This document shows positions 28,556 to 56,723 of a DNA stretch of 64,000 nucleotides, piece after piece. A program made the position numbers and the translations under genes. Position 1 is the first letter of the stretch, and the number at the start of each line of letters is the position of its first letter. Source of the DNA: Chthonomonadales bacterium. GTDB lineage: Bacteria; Armatimonadota; Chthonomonadetes; Chthonomonadales; CAJBBX01. Below the pieces are notes generated by a model. That model worked only from the letters and a program-made list of their open reading frames with translations. It ran no database searches and was not told the DNA's origin. The stretch covers positions 70,289 to 134,288 of the forward strand of contig JADLGO010000064.1 of the NCBI GenBank assembly GCA_020849275.1, written 5' to 3'.

Positions 28556-29845
28556 CTACTCCTCCACGCGCAGCCAGTTGTCGACGGAGGCGACCACCGG
28601 CAGGTCGCCGATCCGCCCGAGCGCCGCGCGCATCCTCGCCTCCCGCACCCGGTGTGTCACCCAGACGATCTCCGCCTGCTGCTCGCCGCACGAGCGCTGC
28701 ACCACCGACTCCACGGAGACCCCCTCCTCGCCGAGCACTCCGGCTACGGCGGCCAGTACGCCCGGCCGGTCCGTCACGGTCATCCGCAGGTAGTACTTCG
28801 TCTCCACGGCGTCGATGGGCAGCATTCGCTTGCGCTCGAAGCAGGTGCACTGGATGCGCCCGGTGGCGCCGAAGAGGATGTTGCGGGCGACGTCGATGAT
28901 GTCGCCGACGACGGCGCTGCCGGTGGGCATCATGCCGGCGCCGCGGCCGTAGAACATGACGTCGCCCACGGCGTCGCCGCGCAGGTAGATGGCGTTGTAG
29001 ACGTCGCTGGTGGAGGCGAGCGGGTGGGTAGCCGGCAGCAGAGCCGGGTGCACGCGCACCTGCATGGCGTCGTCGTCCACGCGGGTGCCGATGGCGAGGA
29101 GCTTGATGATGTAGCCAAGCTGCCGCGCCCACTCGATGTCGCGGGCCGCGATGGCCGTGATGCCCTCGACGTAGACGTCCCCGACATGGACGCGGCTGGT
29201 GAAGGCGATGGAGCTGAGGATGGCGATCTTATACTGCGCGTCGAATCCCTGCACGTCGCTGGAAGGGTCGGCCTCGGCGTAGCCGAGAGCCTGGGCCTCG
29301 CGCAGCACGTCGCCGAAGTCGGCGCCCTCTCGCGTCATGCGCGTGAGGATGTAGTTGGTGGTGCCGTTGACGATCCCCTTGACCTCCTGCACCTGGTTGC
29401 CGGCCAGGGCGCTCTTCATCGGCTGCACGATGGGGATCCCACCGCCCACGGAGCCCTCGAAGTGGAAGTCCTGTCGGCGGCGGCCCGCCTCCTCCATGAT
29501 GGTGTGGCCGTCCTTGGCGATCAGCTCCTTGTTGGCGCTGACGACGTGCTTGCCGCCGCGCAGGGCGCGCAGGATGTACTCGCGGGCGGGACTGATGCCG
29601 CCGATGAGCTCGCAGACGATGTCGATCGCGGGGTCGTCGAGGAGCTCGGTGGGGTTGTTTGTGAGGAGCGAGCGCTCGACCTGCACGGCCCGGCGCTTGG
29701 TCAGGTCGCGAACCGCGATCCGCGCGACGCGGATACGGGCGCCCACCTTGCGCTCGATGGCGTCGGCGTTCTGCTCCAGGAGGGCGTACGCCCCCGAACC
29801 GACCACGCCCAGGCCGAGGATGCCGACGTTAATCGTCTTCTTCAT
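28556..29845 (-). CDS. hom: Homoserine dehydrogenase
   Basis: A 429-residue enzyme reducing aspartate semialdehyde to homoserine for threonine and methionine synthesis. The NAD(P) motif GILGLGVVGSG opens the protein; the catalytic domain shows ANKELIA, SVGGGIPIV, GIVNGTTNYILT and GYAEADPSSDVQGFD. A C-terminal ACT domain (about 350-425, from YYLRMTVTDRPGVLAAVAGVLGEEGVSVESVVQ) predicts feedback control by an amino acid, usually threonine. It starts 81 nt after the accB stop and probably shares its transcript. Confidence 0.96.
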   Translation of the reverse strand: MKKTINVGILGLGVVGSGAYALLEQNADAIERKVGARIRVARIAVRDLTKRRAVQVERSLLTNNPTELLDDPAIDIVCELIGGISPAREYILRALRGGKHVVSANKELIAKDGHTIMEEAGRRRQDFHFEGSVGGGIPIVQPMKSALAGNQVQEVKGIVNGTTNYILTRMTREGADFGDVLREAQALGYAEADPSSDVQGFDAQYKIAILSSIAFTSRVHVGDVYVEGITAIAARDIEWARQLGYIIKLLAIGTRVDDDAMQVRVHPALLPATHPLASTSDVYNAIYLRGDAVGDVMFYGRGAGMMPTGSAVVGDIIDVARNILFGATGRIQCTCFERKRMLPIDAVETKYYLRMTVTDRPGVLAAVAGVLGEEGVSVESVVQRSCGEQQAEIVWVTHRVREARMRAALGRIGDLPVVASVDNWLRVEE

Positions 29846-29926
29846 AAGGCTGCCCGTGCAGGCCGTCGTCTTGGCGCGGCCGCGCGTGTCCGGTGCGTTG
29901 GGCCGGCGGGCACGTTCGGGGCGGTG

Positions 29927-30415
29927 TCAGGTCTCCGCGGCGCTCAGGTAGACGAGGGGCTCGCCTTCCTTCACGAGCTGGCCGTTGGCCGCCGCTATGG
30001 CGGCGACGACGCCCGCGTAGTCGCTCGGGATCTCGGAGAACACCTTCATCGCCTCGATCAGGCCGATGGTCTGCCCGACCTCGACGCGGTCGCCGACCTC
30101 CACGAAGGGCGGATCGTCCGGGCTGGCGGAGCGAAAGAAGATGCCGACCATCGGCGCCTCGATGGCGGTCCGTCCGTTCCCCTCGGGCTCCGGCGCCGGC
30201 TCGGCCGGTGTCGGCGTGCCAGACGGCCCGGCGCCCGCCTGCGCCGCCGGTTCGGCCGGCGCCTGGGCGAGCCGCGCGCGGCGCGGCCGGTAGGCGGCGC
30301 CCCGGATCCTCACCGTCCAATCACCGTCCTCCACGATCAGCTCGGCGAGGCCGCGGGTCTCCACGAGCCGGATCAGGCGGACGATGTGGTCCAGCTCGAT
30401 GCCGGAGTCGGTCAT
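29927..30415 (-). CDS. accB: Biotin carboxyl carrier protein of acetyl-CoA carboxylase
   Basis: A 162-residue BCCP. The N-terminal part (IVRLIRLVETRGLAELIVEDGDWTVRIRG) is the dimerising segment, followed by an Ala/Pro linker and a biotinyl domain from residue 84. The biotin site is intact: EAMK at 121-124, with Lys124 as the acceptor. This is the window's functional carrier, in contrast to the lysine-less copy at 53707. It has its own promoter (30500-30528) and lies upstream of hom, away from accC. Confidence 0.95.
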   Translation of the reverse strand: MTDSGIELDHIVRLIRLVETRGLAELIVEDGDWTVRIRGAAYRPRRARLAQAPAEPAAQAGAGPSGTPTPAEPAPEPEGNGRTAIEAPMVGIFFRSASPDDPPFVEVGDRVEVGQTIGLIEAMKVFSEIPSDYAGVVAAIAAANGQLVKEGEPLVYLSAAET

Positions 30416-30460: not shown

Positions 30461-30490
30461 AAAACCGGAAGGGCGCGCGCCGCCCTTCCG
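30461..30490 (-). terminator. Intrinsic terminator after the LolA-like gene (minus strand)
   Basis: CGGAAGGGCG pairs with CGCCCTTCCG over a 5-nt loop (30466-30490). On the minus strand it is followed by G then TTTT (30464-30461), one of the few T-tracts in the window. It lies 35 nt past the stop of the LolA-like gene but also just downstream of the accB promoter, so it forms part of the accB leader. Confidence 0.75.
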
Positions 30491-30499
30491 TTGGGCTCC

Positions 30500-30528
30500 A
30501 GTATACCGCCGGGCCGGGGCCGTGTCAA
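30500..30528 (-). promoter_or_regulatory. Sigma-70 promoter for accB: TTGACA-N17-TATACT
   Basis: On the minus strand a consensus -35 TTGACA (30528-30523) is 17 nt from TATACT (30505-30500). The -35 overlaps the stop codon of the LolA-like gene. Transcription should begin near 30493, directly before the hairpin at 30466-30490, and accB starts at 30415. Confidence 0.8.
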
Positions 30529-49239: not shown

Positions 49240-49341
49240 GGAGTCGGGCTGCTGTCGCATCCGGATGGTGCGGCTTCCCCGTTGCCCACCATCGGCCGTG
49301 CGCACGGCTGCCTCACGTTCCCCGAAGAAGGAGACACGGAA

Positions 49342-50160
49342 ATGCGACCAGGGCGTCGGCGCGGCTTCACCCTCATCGAGCTCCTCGTGGTCATCGCCAT
49401 CATCGCGATCCTCGCCGCGATCCTCTTCCCCGTGTTCGCGCGCGCTCGCGAGCAGGCCCGCAAGACGACCTGCCTCTCGAACCTCAAGCAGACCGGCCTG
49501 GCCACCCTCATGTATGCCCAGGACTACGACGAGACCTTCCCCTGGCTCATGATGGATGGGCGCAACAACGACGACAACACCGGCCTCAGCACGCGCATGA
49601 GCAGCGGCCCGCCCAACCTCAACGGAGTCCGAGGGCTCTTCATGGAGTACGTTCTGTACCCGTACATGAAGAACTACGGCATTTTCGGGTGCCCCACGCT
49701 CCGGCCCGACCCGGTGCGCCTGGGCGCCGACAACCTCCCTCTCAACCAGTTCGGCTCCTACGCCTACGCTTACGGCGGAATCGGCGCCGGCTGCGGCCCG
49801 GGCGCCCCGGCGACCTCGCCGCGCCCAACGCCGTTCGAGCTCTTCGTGCGCCTCGGCCCCTTCCTGGACAGTCGGCTGGGCTACCTGCTCACCACCAACT
49901 GCAACCCGCAGGCCTACTTTATTGCGGGCCAGCCGCTCGCGGCGGTGGGGTCCTCCTCCACCGCGATCCTCTCCGTCTGCAACTCCTATGGCGCGCACCA
50001 GGGCTTCACCGACGACGACATCGTGCCGGTCTCGGTGGGGGGCACCGGGCGCGAGGAGACGGGGGCGACCTTCGCGGTCTTCGCGGACGGGCACGCGCGC
50101 TACAAGACCGGCAAGTTCATCGACCTGGTGGCCTTCTCGCTGGCTCCGCTGAACCCCTAG
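49342..50160 (+). CDS. DUF1559-type prepilin-like protein 1
   Basis: A 272-residue protein. The short basic leader MRPGRRRG precedes [12 protein letters not shown], the prepilin peptidase site and hydrophobic stalk. After the helix come [25 protein letters not shown] and [10 protein letters not shown], then the C-terminal [16 protein letters not shown], where the DG of the H-x9-DG motif is found. Such proteins are abundant in Armatimonadota and Planctomycetota; they are probably pseudopilin-like surface or secretion components with unknown cargo. It has its own promoter and is followed after 10 nt by a small membrane protein. Confidence 0.9.
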
Positions 50161-50170
50161 GAGGAGCGCC

Positions 50171-50353
50171 GTGAAGAGCGAGCTCAACCCCGTGATCGCC
50201 GTCGTGGTGATCGCGTTGGTGGTGGTGGGCCTTGGCATCCTGTTCTGGTCGAAGGGCCAGGGCACCACGTTCACTAAGGCCGAGGCCCATGGGAAGCTCG
50301 GAGAGCGCCTGGACGCGCTGACCGGGGCGCAACCGGGCTCAGGCTCGCGGTAA
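50171..50353 (+). CDS. Small single-span membrane protein paired with prepilin 1
   Basis: A 60-residue protein: MKSELNPVIAVVVIALVVVGL gives one membrane helix, followed by about 35 hydrophilic residues. The GTG start has GGAGGAG eight nt upstream and lies 10 nt after the prepilin stop. A similar arrangement recurs after prepilin 2. The function is unknown; a helper in prepilin assembly is a guess from position. Confidence 0.75.
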   Translation: MKSELNPVIAVVVIALVVVGLGILFWSKGQGTTFTKAEAHGKLGERLDALTGAQPGSGSR

Positions 50354-50359
50354 CATTGT

Positions 50360-50383
50360 GCCCCCCGCACGCTTGCGGGGGGC
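50360..50383 (+). terminator. 10-bp hairpin closing prepilin module 1
   Basis: GCCCCCCGCA pairs with TGCGGGGGGC over CGCT, seven nt after the stop of the small membrane protein. It separates the first module from the promoter of the second. Confidence 0.75.
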
Positions 50384-50405
50384 GCGCCTCCCTGCCGCCT
50401 CCGCC

Positions 50406-50435
50406 TTGACAGATGAAGCATGGCCTTGTTACACT
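50406..50435 (+). promoter_or_regulatory. Promoter of prepilin module 2: TTGACA-N18-TACACT
   Basis: TTGACA (50406-50411) is a perfect -35; TACACT (50430-50435) is a moderate -10 at 18 nt. The leader to ATG 50575 is about 130 nt. Confidence 0.65.
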
Positions 50436-50574
50436 GTAGCTGTCCGGGCCCGGCGGGCCGGCGCCGTGCCTGATGTCCCGTAGCGCGCGACCTCGCGCGC
50501 CTGCCTGGCTACCCCCGCCTCCCGATGTTATCTCTTATTGCGAGTCGCTTCGGAAATCGGAAAGGAGATCGAGG

Positions 50575-51363
50575 ATGCGACGTTCCCGCATGGGGTTCAC
50601 GCTGATCGAACTACTCGTCGTCATCGCGATTATCGCGATCCTCGCCGCGATCCTGTTCCCGGTGTTCGCTCAGGCCCGGGAGAAGGCGCGCGGCACCTCG
50701 TGCCTGTCGAACACCAAGCAGATCGGCACGGCGACCCAGATGTACGCGCAGGACTACGACGAGACGCTCCCGCTGAGCCTCTACATGGCCGACTGGGGCA
50801 CGGGCACCGTGGCCACCTGTTATGACGGGCTCTTCCCGTACATGAAGAGCGCGGCCATTCTGCAGTGCCCTTCGGCGCCGAGGGTGATCGACTTCGCGGC
50901 CTACATGGCGGCCTTCGGCTTCCAGCTCCAGGGCAACTTCCGCTACGGTTCCTACCCGCCCAACGTCGTCGTGATCGCCGACGGAGACCCCGGCCTGGTC
51001 AACGACCGCCCCGCGCAGACGCTCGGAGGCATCCCGTACCCGGCCTCGCAGCCCGTCTTTGCCGACGGCTACATCGGCGGCGGCGGCACCTTCTACACGC
51101 CCGTTGAGGGGCGGCACACCGACGGCACCAACGTGTCGTATCTGGACGGCCACTCCAAGTACTTCCGCCTGAGCCGGAACCCGAACCCCGATCCGGGGCT
51201 CTACGACACGGCGGTCGGCAAGCAGATCGACGGCTGGATCATCACCTCCGGACCGTTCCGCTCGCCCGATCCCAACAACCCGAACTTCGAGCTGGCCGGC
51301 ATCGTGGTCGATCCGGATTGCCCGGACCCGGTCGCCAGCCCCTGCGTACGCGACACCCGCTGA
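50575..51363 (+). CDS. DUF1559-type prepilin-like protein 2 (H-x9-DG)
   Basis: A 262-residue paralogue of the protein at 49342. Leader MRRSRMG is followed by [12 protein letters not shown]; the following block [25 protein letters not shown] is close to that of the first copy. The C-terminal motif is complete: [18 protein letters not shown] has His, nine residues, then Asp-Gly. AAAGGAG lies ten nt upstream. The two copies differ strongly in the middle, suggesting different surface roles. Confidence 0.92.
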
Positions 51364-51373
51364 CACGGTGGCG

Positions 51374-51403
51374 CCGCCGGGCGGGTCTGGGTCCGCCCGG
51401 CGG
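51374..51403 (+). terminator. 11-bp hairpin between prepilin 2 and its small partner
   Basis: CCGCCGGGCGG pairs exactly with CCGCCCGGCGG over an eight-nt loop, ten nt after the prepilin stop and 27 nt before the next start. It may reduce transcription into the small gene, giving more prepilin than partner. Confidence 0.6.
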
Positions 51404-51429
51404 TGTTCGCCGGCCAGGGAGAATGGCCC

Positions 51430-51693
51430 ATGTCACGAAGAGCGCGCGGGGCGGTGAGCGCGGAGATCGGCACGCCACTGATCGTCGTGGTGGTGGTGCT
51501 GGTGGTGGTGGTCCTCGGTTACTTTGCGTGGCGCACCTTCGCGCCCCCGCCGGATCCGATGGCCAACATGACGATGGATCAGAAGGTCCAGGCGATCCGG
51601 GACGCTCAGAAGAACCTGCATCCGCGCAACCCGAACCCCGGCGGCGTGCTCAATCGCGGCCACGGCATCCAGCCGATGAGTCCGGGCCGATAG
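51430..51693 (+). CDS. Small single-span membrane protein paired with prepilin 2
   Basis: An 87-residue protein. A basic N-terminus (MSRRARG) and one membrane helix (PLIVVVVVLVVVVLGYFAW) are followed by a soluble tail with MTMDQKVQAIRDAQKNL and an Asn/Pro/Gly-rich end. It shares placement and topology, but little sequence, with the 60-residue protein at 50171. GGGAG lies eight nt before the ATG. Confidence 0.75.
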   Translation: MSRRARGAVSAEIGTPLIVVVVVLVVVVLGYFAWRTFAPPPDPMANMTMDQKVQAIRDAQKNLHPRNPNPGGVLNRGHGIQPMSPGR

Positions 51694-51798
51694 CCCCCGC
51701 GGCGTGGCGGCGCTGGGGACGCGTCCGCGGGGTTCGTGCCGCCGACGCTCGCGCGCGCCGGCCGCCGGCGCTGCAGGCTGGCGCCTCCGAGGCTCGTA

Positions 51799-51807
51799 TG
51801 CTATAAT
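51799..51807 (+). promoter_or_regulatory. efp: Extended -10 promoter for efp: TGC-TATAAT
   Basis: A perfect TATAAT (51802-51807) is preceded by TG one base upstream, the extended -10 element, which can work without a good -35; none is visible here. The TTG start of efp is 49 nt downstream. Confidence 0.7.
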
Positions 51808-51855
51808 AGCTCGCCGCCCCAGCGTGGTCGCGGTTGCTTCGGAGGTGCCTCGCCA

Positions 51856-52416
51856 TTGATCGATACCAGCGACTTCCGCAACGGCCTGAGCATACGCCAG
51901 GACAGCGACATCTTCACCATCGTCGAGTTCCAGCACGTTAAGCCCGGAAAGGGCGGCGCCTTCGTGCGCACCAGGCTGCGCAACGTGCGCACCGGCGCGG
52001 TCATCGAGAAGACCTTCCGGGCCGGCGAGAAGATGGAGCAGGCCCGCCTCGAACGGCGTCCCATGCAGTTCCTCTACGTGCAGGAGGACCTCTACTTCCT
52101 CATGGACACGGAGACCTACGAGCAGATCTCCGTGCCTCGTTCGGCCTTCGGCGACCCGGTGAAGTACCTCAAGGACGGAACGGAAGTCACGGTACTCGAC
52201 CACGACGGCACCGTGATCGGCGTGGAGGTTCCCTTCTTCGTGGAGCTCGAGGTGGTGGAGACCGATCCCGGAGTGCGCGGCGACACGGCGGCCGGGGGCT
52301 CCAAGCCGGCCAAGGTGGCGACGGGAGCGGTCATCCAGGTCCCCTTCTTCATCAACGTCGGCGACCGCGTCAAGATCGACACGCGGACCGACTCGTACCT
52401 CGAGCGCGTTAAGTAG
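51856..52416 (+). CDS. efp: Translation elongation factor P
   Basis: A 186-residue EF-P, which relieves ribosome stalling at polyproline. Domain I carries the loop [16 protein letters not shown], with Lys32 at the tip that reaches the peptidyl transferase centre and is modified in many bacteria. Domains II-III follow ([49 protein letters not shown]). The start is TTG, fixed by the family opening (M)IDTSDFRNG and GGAGGTG nine nt upstream. It heads the block that ends with accC. No epmA or ymfI-like modification gene is nearby. Confidence 0.97.
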
Positions 52417-52447
52417 GGGCCGCGCGCCCATTCCGAGGGCCTTGCCT

Positions 52448-53710
52448 GTGCGGTCAAGCCGACGCACGCGAAGCTCGTCCTCCGAGCGACTGTTCCAGAC
52501 GTTTCTGGACTGGGTCCGCCGGCTCGGGCAGCTCGCGACAATCATCGCGCTGGTTGCCGTCGCCTACCTCCTGTATGGGCTGTTCGCCGGCGGCATCACC
52601 GTGTGGGGCACCCTCGACGCGGCGGCACGGGCGCGCATCGGCTCCAACGTCCATCTCGGAATCCAGGTCCTCAACATCTCCATCGGCGTCCTGCTCCTAT
52701 CGCTCTGCGTGCTCTACTACGACGAGGAGACGCTCGGCTACGCGCTCGTGGCCTCCTCCGTGCTCCTCTACTACGGCGTCCCCTTCCTGATGGACTATCT
52801 GATGGTCGGGCAGTTCGCCCAATGGGAGCGCACGGGCAACGTCGCGGCCCTCTCGATCTACAACGAGTTGCGCTTCGTGGGCGTGGCGAGCGCGGTGCCG
52901 GGCGTCATCCTCACGGTGCGCGACCTGTTCCTGCGGCTCCTCGACGGCGTGGGGCGCAAGCGCGACCAGTTCAGCGCCATGCCGTATGGCGGCACGGTGC
53001 AGGAGGAGACCCCCGTGAGCCCGGCGCTCATCGGGGCCCTGGCCAAGTGCTGGCAGCTTCCGTTCTGCCGCGAGTTCGTGCGCATCCGCTGCCCCATCTT
53101 CCACGCGCGCACGCGCTGCTGGCGCGAGCGCGTGGGCTGCATGTGCGAGGAGACCGTCATCCGGCACGCGATGGACGCCATGATGGCGGAGGTCGAGGTC
53201 AAGCGCCCGGACGGGCCCGTCGACTTCGCCGCGGTCGTGCCGGACGAGCGCCGGATCGACCTGGACAACCCGACCGGCGTGAAGAAGCCCGTCTGGGAAG
53301 CTCCGCCGCCGCGCGCGCCGAAGATCTCGCGCAAGCAGGTTCGCATCCCTCACAACCCCAACCTCACCATGCCCGTGAAGCGAGAGCGCTGCCGAAACTG
53401 CGTGATCTACAACGAGCACCAGCGCCTGAAGTACCAGGCCCTGGCGCCGCTGATCGTGCTGGCGCTGCCGGCCCTTGCTTACTGGCGGTTCGCCGAGATC
53501 CAGGGGGGCTTGAACCACTTCCTGCGGACGGCCGATCGCGTCATGTCCCGGCTATCGTTGGACCCGCACGCGCGCGAGTTCGGCATCGTCAGCAGCATCA
53601 CGTCGGCCAGCGTGCTGGCCGAGTACATCCTGATCGGCTGCCTCGTGGTCATCTTCACCACCATGGTGCTGCGGCTGCTGGAGTACCTCGTGTTCAAGCT
53701 GAAGGTATGA
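52448..53710 (+). CDS. Membrane protein with cysteine-rich soluble domain, function unknown
   Basis: A 420-residue protein. Four hydrophobic helices lie in residues ~28-165 and two more near the C-terminus. The soluble part between has a dense cysteine cluster: CWQLPFCREFVRIRC, HARTRCWRERVGCMCEE and, further on, RCRNCVIYNEHQ, about eight Cys that could bind metal or an Fe-S cluster. The family was not recognised. It lies 31 nt after efp and overlaps the carrier-like gene by ATGA, so it belongs to this operon. GTG 52448 fits the GAGGG site better than TTG 52442. Confidence 0.7.
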   Translation: MRSSRRTRSSSSERLFQTFLDWVRRLGQLATIIALVAVAYLLYGLFAGGITVWGTLDAAARARIGSNVHLGIQVLNISIGVLLLSLCVLYYDEETLGYALVASSVLLYYGVPFLMDYLMVGQFAQWERTGNVAALSIYNELRFVGVASAVPGVILTVRDLFLRLLDGVGRKRDQFSAMPYGGTVQEETPVSPALIGALAKCWQLPFCREFVRIRCPIFHARTRCWRERVGCMCEETVIRHAMDAMMAEVEVKRPDGPVDFAAVVPDERRIDLDNPTGVKKPVWEAPPPRAPKISRKQVRIPHNPNLTMPVKRERCRNCVIYNEHQRLKYQALAPLIVLALPALAYWRFAEIQGGLNHFLRTADRVMSRLSLDPHAREFGIVSSITSASVLAEYILIGCLVVIFTTMVLRLLEYLVFKLKV

Positions 53711-54177
53711 GGCGCGGCGTCATGATGGCACCCGGGTTGTTGAGCGATCTCGAGAAGCTGGTCGACCTGGTGGCCGGCGCGGCCGTGGTCGAGGTGACCG
53801 TGCGCTCTGGCGACCTGCGGATCACCATCCGCAAGCCCGGCGGCGCGCCCGGCGGCGCGCCCCCGACACGCCCGGGCGAGGTCCGCGCGCCCGCCGCGCT
53901 TCCGGCGGTTACAGCCGCCGCCGCGCCGGCCGCGGGGGCGCGCCCGGGGGAGCGGTGGGTCACCGCGCCCCTCGTGGGGGTGTTTCATCCGGCAGAGCCG
54001 CCCGTGCTGATCGGCGTGCGCGTGCGTGAGGGGCAGGTGGTCGGACTCATCGAGTCGATGCGCATCATGAGCGACGTGCGCGCGCCCGAGCCGGGTGTGA
54101 TCATCGAGGCGCTCGTGGAGGACGGCATGCCGGTGGAGTTCGGGCAGCCGCTCTTCGCTCTGCACCCCTCGGACTGA
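53707..54177 (+). CDS. BCCP homologue lacking the biotinyl lysine (BADC-like)
   Basis: A 156-residue AccB homologue. The N-terminal segment LLSDLEKLVDLVAGAAVVEVTVRSGDLRITIRK parallels that of the accB product, then a Pro/Ala linker, then a biotinyl/lipoyl fold from about residue 84. At the biotin site the usual E-A-M-K is E-S-M-R (116-119): arginine replaces the lysine, codon CGC. It cannot be biotinylated at this place. Plant chloroplasts and some bacteria have such lysine-less proteins (BADC) that regulate acetyl-CoA carboxylase by joining the carrier complex. It lies two genes before accC, in the usual accB slot. Confidence 0.85.
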   Translation: MRRGVMMAPGLLSDLEKLVDLVAGAAVVEVTVRSGDLRITIRKPGGAPGGAPPTRPGEVRAPAALPAVTAAAAPAAGARPGERWVTAPLVGVFHPAEPPVLIGVRVREGQVVGLIESMRIMSDVRAPEPGVIIEALVEDGMPVEFGQPLFALHPSD

Positions 54178-54210
54178 CGACGCCGGGACGCGCCGCCCCG
54201 GAGGAGAGCC

Positions 54211-54582
54211 ATGATGAGAGCGGACCGCGACCGGTGGCGGGGCCTCGGGCTCATCGAGGTGCTGGTGGTCGCCGTGCTGCTGATCGCCCTGGCGGCGTTC
54301 CTGCTGCCGCGCTACCTGGGAGGGCGTGCCGGCGGCAAGGTGGTGCGCGCCCCGATCACCGTGGCGCGCGACGCCGTGTGCCGTACCGACCTCAACAGCG
54401 TGAGGCAGAGCATCCAGGCGGCCGCCGCGGGCGACCCGGACGGTCGCCCCGTGGGCAGCCTCGAGGAGTTGCGGGAGTTGACGCCGGACCTCAAGCGCTG
54501 TCCCGTGGGCGGGGAGCCCTACGTCTACGACCCGCGCACCGGGCAGGTGCGCTGCCCGCACCCGGGGCACGAGAGCTACTGA
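54211..54582 (+). CDS. Small minor-prepilin-like protein in the acc operon
   Basis: A 123-residue protein. The stalk WRGLGLIEVLVVAVLLIALAAF resembles a prepilin N-terminus (Gly, then LIE with the Glu5 equivalent) though Phe is replaced by Leu. The soluble part (CRTDLNSVRQSIQAAAAGDPDG, LTPDLKRCPVGGEPYVYDPRTGQVRCPH) resembles the end of GspG/DUF1559 proteins and has three cysteines. GGAGGAGAG precedes the ATG. Its place between a carrier homologue and accC is unexpected. Confidence 0.75.
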   Translation: MMRADRDRWRGLGLIEVLVVAVLLIALAAFLLPRYLGGRAGGKVVRAPITVARDAVCRTDLNSVRQSIQAAAAGDPDGRPVGSLEELRELTPDLKRCPVGGEPYVYDPRTGQVRCPHPGHESY

Positions 54583-54599
54583 GCGCACGCCACAACCGC

Positions 54600-55955
<1,356 letters not shown>

Positions 55956-56015
55956 TCTGGGCGCGCGTTCGCGCTGCCGCCGCGGGGCACGCCGCGCGAG
56001 CCGGGGGGGCGGCGC

Positions 56016-56723
56016 TCAGCCCGTCAGGCGCTGCACGCGGCGGCGCCGCGCGGACGGCGGCGCCGCGAACGCCACGGCATGCCCAACCCCCATCTCGCAG
56101 CCGCGCACCCGCGCCAGCGACCGGTAGTAGTCGATGTAGGCGAAGCGCGACACACCGCCGCGGAACAGCTCATAGCGCTCGGCCACGTGCTGCCAGAGTG
56201 CCATGTCCTCCTCCGTCACCTCCAAGAAGGTCTCCGCCACGAACCCCTCCTGGTCCTCCCAGTTCTCGGCGTAGAGGAGGCGATAGACACCGTGGGCGGG
56301 GTCCGATCGCTGGAAGCCGGCGATCGCCGCATAGAACATGGCGTGCGGCACGTTGTCGGCGCAGGCGGTGTGATCCTTGTGCATACTGCCGCGCCAGTGG
56401 GTCAGCACGGCCCGCGGGCGGCAGACACGGATGACGTCGGCGATGCGCAGTTGGGCCTCCTGGGTGCAGGGGAGCTCGCCGTCCGCGTAGTCCAGCGCGA
56501 ACATGCGCGCGCCGAGCGCCGCGGCGGCCTCCTCGGCCTCCGCGCGCTTCTGGCGCGCGTAGGCATCGGGCGCCAGCCTCGGGTGGCCCTTCTCGCCCGG
56601 CGTCAGGTGCAGCATCGCGATGCCTCCGCCCTGGCGCGCGTGGGCGGCCAGCGCCATGCCGCAAGCGATCTCGCAGTCGCCCATGTGCGCGCCGATGGCC
56701 AGGATCTCCACTCCCTCGCTCAT
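56016..56723 (-). CDS. PIG-L (LmbE) family deacetylase-like protein, HMGD variant
   Basis: A 235-residue protein. The family normally opens with a zinc-binding HPDDE motif; here it is AIGAHMGDCEIACG, keeping His and the second Asp (zinc ligands) but with Gly in place of the Asp that acts as base. HWRGSMHKDHTACADNV supplies the second His ligands. Known members deacetylate GlcNAc-containing compounds such as mycothiol or bacillithiol precursors. The variant may form a distinct subfamily. ATG 56723 overlaps the stop of the double-GNAT gene (ATGA) and has AAAGGAG upstream; it is last in a four-gene operon. Confidence 0.8.
   Translation of the reverse strand: MSEGVEILAIGAHMGDCEIACGMALAAHARQGGGIAMLHLTPGEKGHPRLAPDAYARQKRAEAEEAAAALGARMFALDYADGELPCTQEAQLRIADVIRVCRPRAVLTHWRGSMHKDHTACADNVPHAMFYAAIAGFQRSDPAHGVYRLLYAENWEDQEGFVAETFLEVTEEDMALWQHVAERYELFRGGVSRFAYIDYYRSLARVRGCEMGVGHAVAFAAPPSARRRRVQRLTG

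Follow-up and report, generated by a model that had tools for sequence, protein, structure and literature searches.

A BCCP paralogue of Armatimonadota with repeated loss of the biotinyl lysine in the efp–accC gene row: a possible non-catalytic, BADC-like partner of acetyl-CoA carboxylase

Two BCCP copies occur in Armatimonadota, and one of them, here called BX, forms one clade, keeps its synteny with accC, has repeatedly lost the biotinyl lysine, has a changed thumb and is maintained by purifying selection; the genome from which the window (the whole 64,000-nt stretch of DNA analysed here) was taken has a single AccC. The explanation that we prefer, with a probability of roughly 0.57, is that after an old duplication the standalone copy serves as the carrier and BX acts as a non-catalytic, AccC-associated subunit that, like plant BADC, would function in assembly or inhibition. 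The features of the window that bear on this explanation are as follows.

29927–30415, − strand: standalone accB of canonical type, with EAMK and a full thumb, located upstream of hom; TIGR00531 118.1 bits, cut-off 115.2
30500–30528, − strand: sigma-70-like promoter site upstream of the canonical accB, by consensus only (11/12 matches; mean of shuffles 0.0)
51859–52416, + strand: efp, elongation factor P (start approximate); NF001810 255 bits, TIGR00038 253 bits
52442–53710, + strand: 422-aa membrane protein matching no Pfam family; overlaps the start of BX by 4 bases
53707–54177, + strand: BX, a paralogue of BCCP in which Arg takes the biotinyl-lysine site; the thumb is shortened and the N-terminal helix-hairpin module kept
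54061–54063, + strand: CGC (Arg119) in place of the BCCP biotinyl lysine codon, from the codon and alignments
54211–54582, + strand: gene for a pseudopilin-like protein, after BX and before accC; matches GspG weakly at 17.6 bits (cut-off 88.9)
54600–55955, + strand: accC, biotin carboxylase; TIGR00514 648 bits, the sole one above the family cut-off in the genome

The BX frame encodes 156 aa, the end of which reads ...GLIESMRIMSDVRAPEPG...PVEFGQPLFALHPSD. As the preliminary description had stated, arginine replaces the biotinyl lysine of a BCCP homologue, giving the motif ESMR in translation, and the biotinyl domain (residues 83–156) contains zero lysines. CGC differs from the AAG codon of the canonical copy at all three bases, so a one-base sequencing error does not explain the arginine; given also that 24 of 33 families include lysine-less orthologues, an origin by sequencing error was ruled out. 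BX scored 39.8 bits against Biotin_lipoyl PF00364 (cut-off 22.1) and 74.4 bits against the BCCP family TIGR00531 over residues 12–152, below the cut-off of 115.2; the latter profile was matched by 29/29 BX proteins of set A1 at E ≤ 0.001. The closest solved relative was E. coli BCCP (4hr7, 51 bits over residues 14–151). An AlphaFold model built from a 54-sequence alignment contained a confident barrel together with an N-terminal helix (residues 9–24) and hairpin (29–42), as in the model of the canonical copy, and its best structural matches were the E. coli biotinyl domain 1bdo (E 7.8e-7) and Arabidopsis BCCP1 9a87. In the predicted structure, therefore, BX has both the biotinyl-domain barrel and the N-terminal module of AccB/BCCP. 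Membership of an unrelated lipoyl/biotinyl family, which the preliminary description had named as a possible objection, was ruled out because the best family was BCCP over the full length and the best fold that of E. coli BCCP. BX resembles bacterial AccB/BCCP in its full-length homology and in occupying the accB slot of efp–accB–accC, but differs in scoring below the TIGR00531 cut-off, lacking the biotinyl lysine (ExMK) and the thumb Tyr, having a thumb segment of 11 residues with His where canonical copies have 16 with Tyr, and belonging to a separate clade.

The five genes from efp to accC all lie on the + strand in the order efp, membrane protein, BX, pseudopilin-like gene and accC. The earlier placement of BX between efp and accC was correct in that all three belong to the same row, but the membrane-protein gene precedes BX and the pseudopilin-like gene follows it. 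No promoter-like or terminator-like sites were found within 51300–56100, which fits one operon without proving it, and the efp–BX–accC row is probably co-transcribed. Across the phylum, 82 of the 94 BX loci had accC downstream in the same orientation and 70 had efp upstream, several of the missing neighbours being due to contig ends or short flanks. At locus L049 (genome G055), a BX-type copy with EAIK has been relocated, with neither efp nor accC within 3 kb on each side; seven further genomes had no accC within the 1.5–3 kb of flank read at the BX locus, including L053 and L056, where it was absent within 3 kb. The genome of the window (4.8 Mb, 99.9% complete) encodes one AccC above the cut-off, one AccD and two matches to the biotin/lipoate ligase family. 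A second AccC as a dedicated partner of BX was sought, and none above the cut-off was found in this genome; the canonical BCCP, whose gene lies 23 kb away, must therefore rely on the AccC encoded beside BX as well.

The presence of that canonical EAMK copy had likewise been recognised earlier, at 24 kb and with its own promoter; the copy stands, at 23 kb, and the promoter is a consensus match (TTGACA-17-TATACT directly 5' of the gene). Between the promoter-like site and the gene (30466–30528), a GC-rich hairpin of 10 pairs is followed by a short T tail, which may end transcription of the upstream gene, fold at the mRNA 5' end or act as an attenuator. The homoserine dehydrogenase gene hom adjoins the standalone accB at 57 of 66 loci examined across the phylum (28556–30415 in the window), indicating that the place of the standalone copy is old too.

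To describe both copies throughout the phylum, 101 Armatimonadota genomes were surveyed; the query P0001 matched 100 of them, mostly at two places, 120 further stretches were fetched, and missing genomes were completed by added searches. Copies were assigned as BX or standalone by context, tree and profile score, with L157 left out as the same gene as L031. A BX orthologue was found in 94 of the 101 genomes. The seven genomes in which no BX-type copy was found were G089, which is 93% complete, and G001, G029, G030, G036, G064 and G079, which are 64%–87% complete. The lysine site of the 94 BX copies was occupied by K in 36, G in 26, R in 12, N in 6, D in 5 and T, S or H in 3 each, so that 58 were lysine-less; a survey of related genomes for lysine loss at this locus had been suggested in the preliminary description. 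Statistics on 92 rows (K in 34) omit two contig-end fragments, L077 and L120, both with K and both within the 94. The survey yielded standalone copies from 97 genomes; two end before the site, and K was present in 95/95 of those in which it was readable, in keeping with the earlier proposal that the carrier function lies with the second copy, to which it was suggested to have moved. Among the 58 genomes with a lysine-less BX, 55 had a standalone copy with a readable K, one had a truncated copy, and two, only 64% and 80% complete, had none found. At the family level (33 families), BX was lysine-less in 24 and of the K form in 14, with both forms in 5. Gly was present in all six copies of family f6 (one genus) and in all six of f14, and the window's own family, f1, had 7 K, 2 R and 2 N among its 11 BX copies. 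The objection that close relatives might have lysine was thus partly justified, as 7 of the 11 own-family copies do, but losses recurred phylum-wide and sequencing error was excluded. Lysine loss therefore appears to be permitted and not required, and the lysine-less state is better regarded as a repeated loss within a family already altered in its thumb and Tyr than as a defining trait.

Outside the phylum, a contig pattern search that allowed Lys or Arg at the site yielded at least 593 matches, of which the best 80, a list biased to the query, were examined. Four of these were in an Armatimonadota-type gene row (L207 by gene context only), and L210 was removed as a wrong ORF. In the remaining BCCPs of other organisms from these best 80 of at least 593 matches, the biotin site was K in 75/75. 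Among the matches listed, the order efp–accB–accC with a normal accB was found in Nitrospirae, Omnitrophota, Listeria and others; the slot that BX occupies thus looks like an ancestral place of accB. The cyanobacterial phylum served as a control: none of its 117 genomes searched had more than one match of BCCP size, any second match being a reading frame of ca. 580–630 aa, and the 30 BCCPs fetched had K in 30/30 and a full thumb. Single-genome searches returned one match in each of six genomes outside the phylum and two in each of two Armatimonadota genomes.

A joint tree over 105 columns (BX 38/79, standalone 31/67 and other-organism BCCP 36/75 rows) separated BX from the other rows at a branch with SH-aLRT 98, and the standalone copies fell with ordinary BCCPs; the root was not inferred, and inner forks were poorly resolved with this number of columns. 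With the motif columns removed, the best tree of the 92 BX rows showed 13 changes between K and non-K, and 1000 bootstrap trees gave 12–16. This tree replaced an earlier BX tree with 15 such changes, and counts of 14–19 on collapsed trees were set aside because generalised Fitch on multifurcations gives no strict minimum. Parsimony gives no direction to these changes; loss and not gain of lysine is suggested by the presence of K in all other BCCPs examined. A recent single mutation was ruled out by the 12–16 state changes.

The thumb differs between the two copies more widely than the lysine does. Its segment was 16 residues long in 96/96 standalone copies and in 75/75 of the other-organism BCCPs (again from the best 80 of at least 593 matches), whereas in BX it was ≤ 12 residues in 65/92, 14–15 in 9 and the full 16 in 18. 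Of the standalone copies 94/96 had the thumb Tyr, as did 74/75 BCCPs of other organisms from the same matches, but only 5/92 BX copies had it. Even among the 34 full-length BX copies with K, 33 had no thumb Tyr and 25 had a short thumb. The break with ordinary carrier function therefore seems older and wider than the loss of lysine. E. coli BCCP is reported to be disrupted when the conserved Tyr and Pro of its thumb are mutated (PMC11926652, citing Cronan 2001). The available text of the same source also describes working thumb-less biotin carriers in other carboxylases (PMC11926652), so thumb loss alone leaves carrier function possible.

Selection on the two copies was compared by Nei–Gojobori dN/dS on listed close pairs, saturated synonymous sites giving no value. 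The ratios were 0.05–0.38 for BX, similar to 0.06–0.28 for the standalone copies, and were low in lysine-less BX pairs (0.09 and 0.11 for Gly pairs, 0.22 for an Asn pair). BX is thus kept by purifying selection at the protein level whether or not it has the lysine, and pseudogene status was ruled out. Conserved positions across BX include a VG, the glycines and, close to the C-terminal end, a V-E-[YF]-G-Q motif; conservation of the N-terminal module is only moderate. These results make it unlikely that BX is simply a redundant second carrier that could dispense with biotin because of the standalone copy and is gradually degenerating with no new function. Such decay would account for the mixture of K and non-K forms in f1 and for the long branches of BX in the trees. 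However, BX is full length in most of the 94 of 101 genomes and in 33 families, its dN/dS is that of a maintained gene, and the motif and glycines are conserved over the whole set, whereas a decaying gene should be missing from several complete genomes.

A lineage-dependent role was considered on the basis of the residue at −3. The Glu three positions before the biotin site matters for ligase recognition, and it was present in 34/34 K copies and 30/58 non-K copies of BX, as expected if ligase recognition is no longer selected after loss of K. The same pattern might indicate that recognition is still selected where K is retained, i.e., that K-type BX (36/94) is a true second carrier and that the lysine-less forms are heteromer partners of the standalone BCCP. 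We regard this division of roles as improbable, because the thumb Tyr is lost in nearly all K copies as well (33/34) and the thumb is short in most of them (25). Nonetheless, as 36/94 BX proteins keep K within E-x-[MIL]-K, biotinylation and ordinary carrier function may persist in some of them.

Action outside the holoenzyme appeared slightly more doubtful still. E. coli AccB represses its own operon, and BX, encoded in the very row to be controlled, could by comparison exert feedback on transcription or translation of the efp–accC row or serve as a decoy for biotin ligase. No DNA-binding family was matched by BX in family profile searches, and the loss of Glu −3 in 28/58 lysine-less copies argues against ligase binding. 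Finally, a function tied to EF-P, the membrane protein and the pseudopilin, with the nearness of accC reflecting only ancestral gene order, is very improbable: relatives of the membrane protein and the pseudopilin-like protein are encoded at 52/94 and 73/94 BX loci, respectively, but the most constant neighbour is accC (82/94), and BX has kept the N-terminal module of BCCP.

Under the preferred explanation, a non-catalytic subunit associated with AccC, the role of accB would have been split by an ancient duplication that predates the phylum or took place at its base. The standalone copy beside hom would have stayed the biotin carrier, and the copy in the efp–accC row would have turned into a non-catalytic subunit while keeping the N-terminal helix-hairpin and the barrel. 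BX most likely binds AccC and/or BCCP; it could aid assembly of the BC–BCCP subcomplex or, by occupying BCCP seats, tune the output of acetyl-CoA carboxylase, and we slightly favour assembly over inhibition. By analogy, a BX without a thumb, set against an AccB that has one, would suit a capping partner. If CO2 was no longer carried by BX, as proposed, its lysine would have been free to drift, which could explain the many losses. Lysine-less BX proteins presumably carry no biotin, judging from the missing residue.

The likeness to plant BADC, already raised in the preliminary description, rests on the published description of BADC and on comparisons among bacterial sequences. BADC proteins are described as BCCP homologues without the biotin motif that bind both BC and BCCP, contact the BCCP thumb and are limited to a non-catalytic role (PMC11926652). 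Their inhibition of acetyl-CoA carboxylase, assumed earlier, is the view of one school; for another they are an assembly "glue", and in the available text non-catalytic BCCP-like subunits are called unique to the plant enzyme (PMC11926652). BX is similar in being a BCCP homologue without the biotinylated lysine (in 58/94 of its family only) and in coexisting with an intact BCCP in the same genome (29927–30415 in the window; 55/58 lysine-less genomes). Unlike BADC, BX is bacterial, shares one gene row with accC, retains Lys in 36/94 orthologues and usually lacks the thumb. The suggestion of a bacterial counterpart is thus strengthened by the finding that a paralogue in the place of accB occurs throughout the phylum and has often lost its lysine, and weakened by the copies that keep it. 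That BX works like BADC is a fair hypothesis by analogy; to call it a BADC outright would go further than these comparisons allow, as the lysine is retained in many orthologues. The broader proposition, that the Armatimonadota enzyme has a dedicated non-catalytic subunit derived from a duplicated BCCP, that this subunit is an independently evolved counterpart of BADC, and that the lysine losses followed the end of CO2 carriage, has in our estimate about even odds.

To our knowledge, the actinobacterial epsilon subunit is not a BCCP homologue, and the folds of PII (GlnB) and YqhY are unrelated to that of BX. The proposed role of BX nevertheless resembles that of epsilon as a non-catalytic assembly aid. 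The epsilon (E) subunit of T. fusca, of 8.7 kDa, is described as non-catalytic and as helping to assemble acyl-CoA carboxylase; its partner differs, as it binds the carboxyltransferase subunit and not the BC–BCCP subunit (PMC7835884). For PII and YqhY, action on bacterial ACC or lipid synthesis has been proposed (PMC5080355, PMC5437119). No paper on a bacterial lysine-less or non-biotinylated BCCP-like ACC subunit was found in the open-licence literature, which is weak evidence of absence, and the available part of an early-evolution survey of biotin carboxylases makes no mention of Armatimonadota or accB (PMC3199775).

Repeated loss of the lysine with the rest of the protein kept suggests a structural or regulatory ACC partner of a kind known so far only from plants. 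A phylum with the same design could help in testing the dispute over inhibition and assembly, as it offers natural repeated losses of the lysine, families in which K and non-K copies can be paired, and a gene row of simple layout. There is also a consequence for annotation: BX of the window does not reach the AccB cut-off, and naming genes of this kind accB would mislead metabolic models about the biotin-carrying copy.

Two further observations concern the gene row. The pseudopilin-like gene, recognised by its weak GspG match and with a relative at 73/94 BX loci, is a puzzling pilin-like member of an efp–acc row. Upstream of efp, at 49282–51363 of the window, two adjacent genes encode proteins with type-II-secretion-like N termini.
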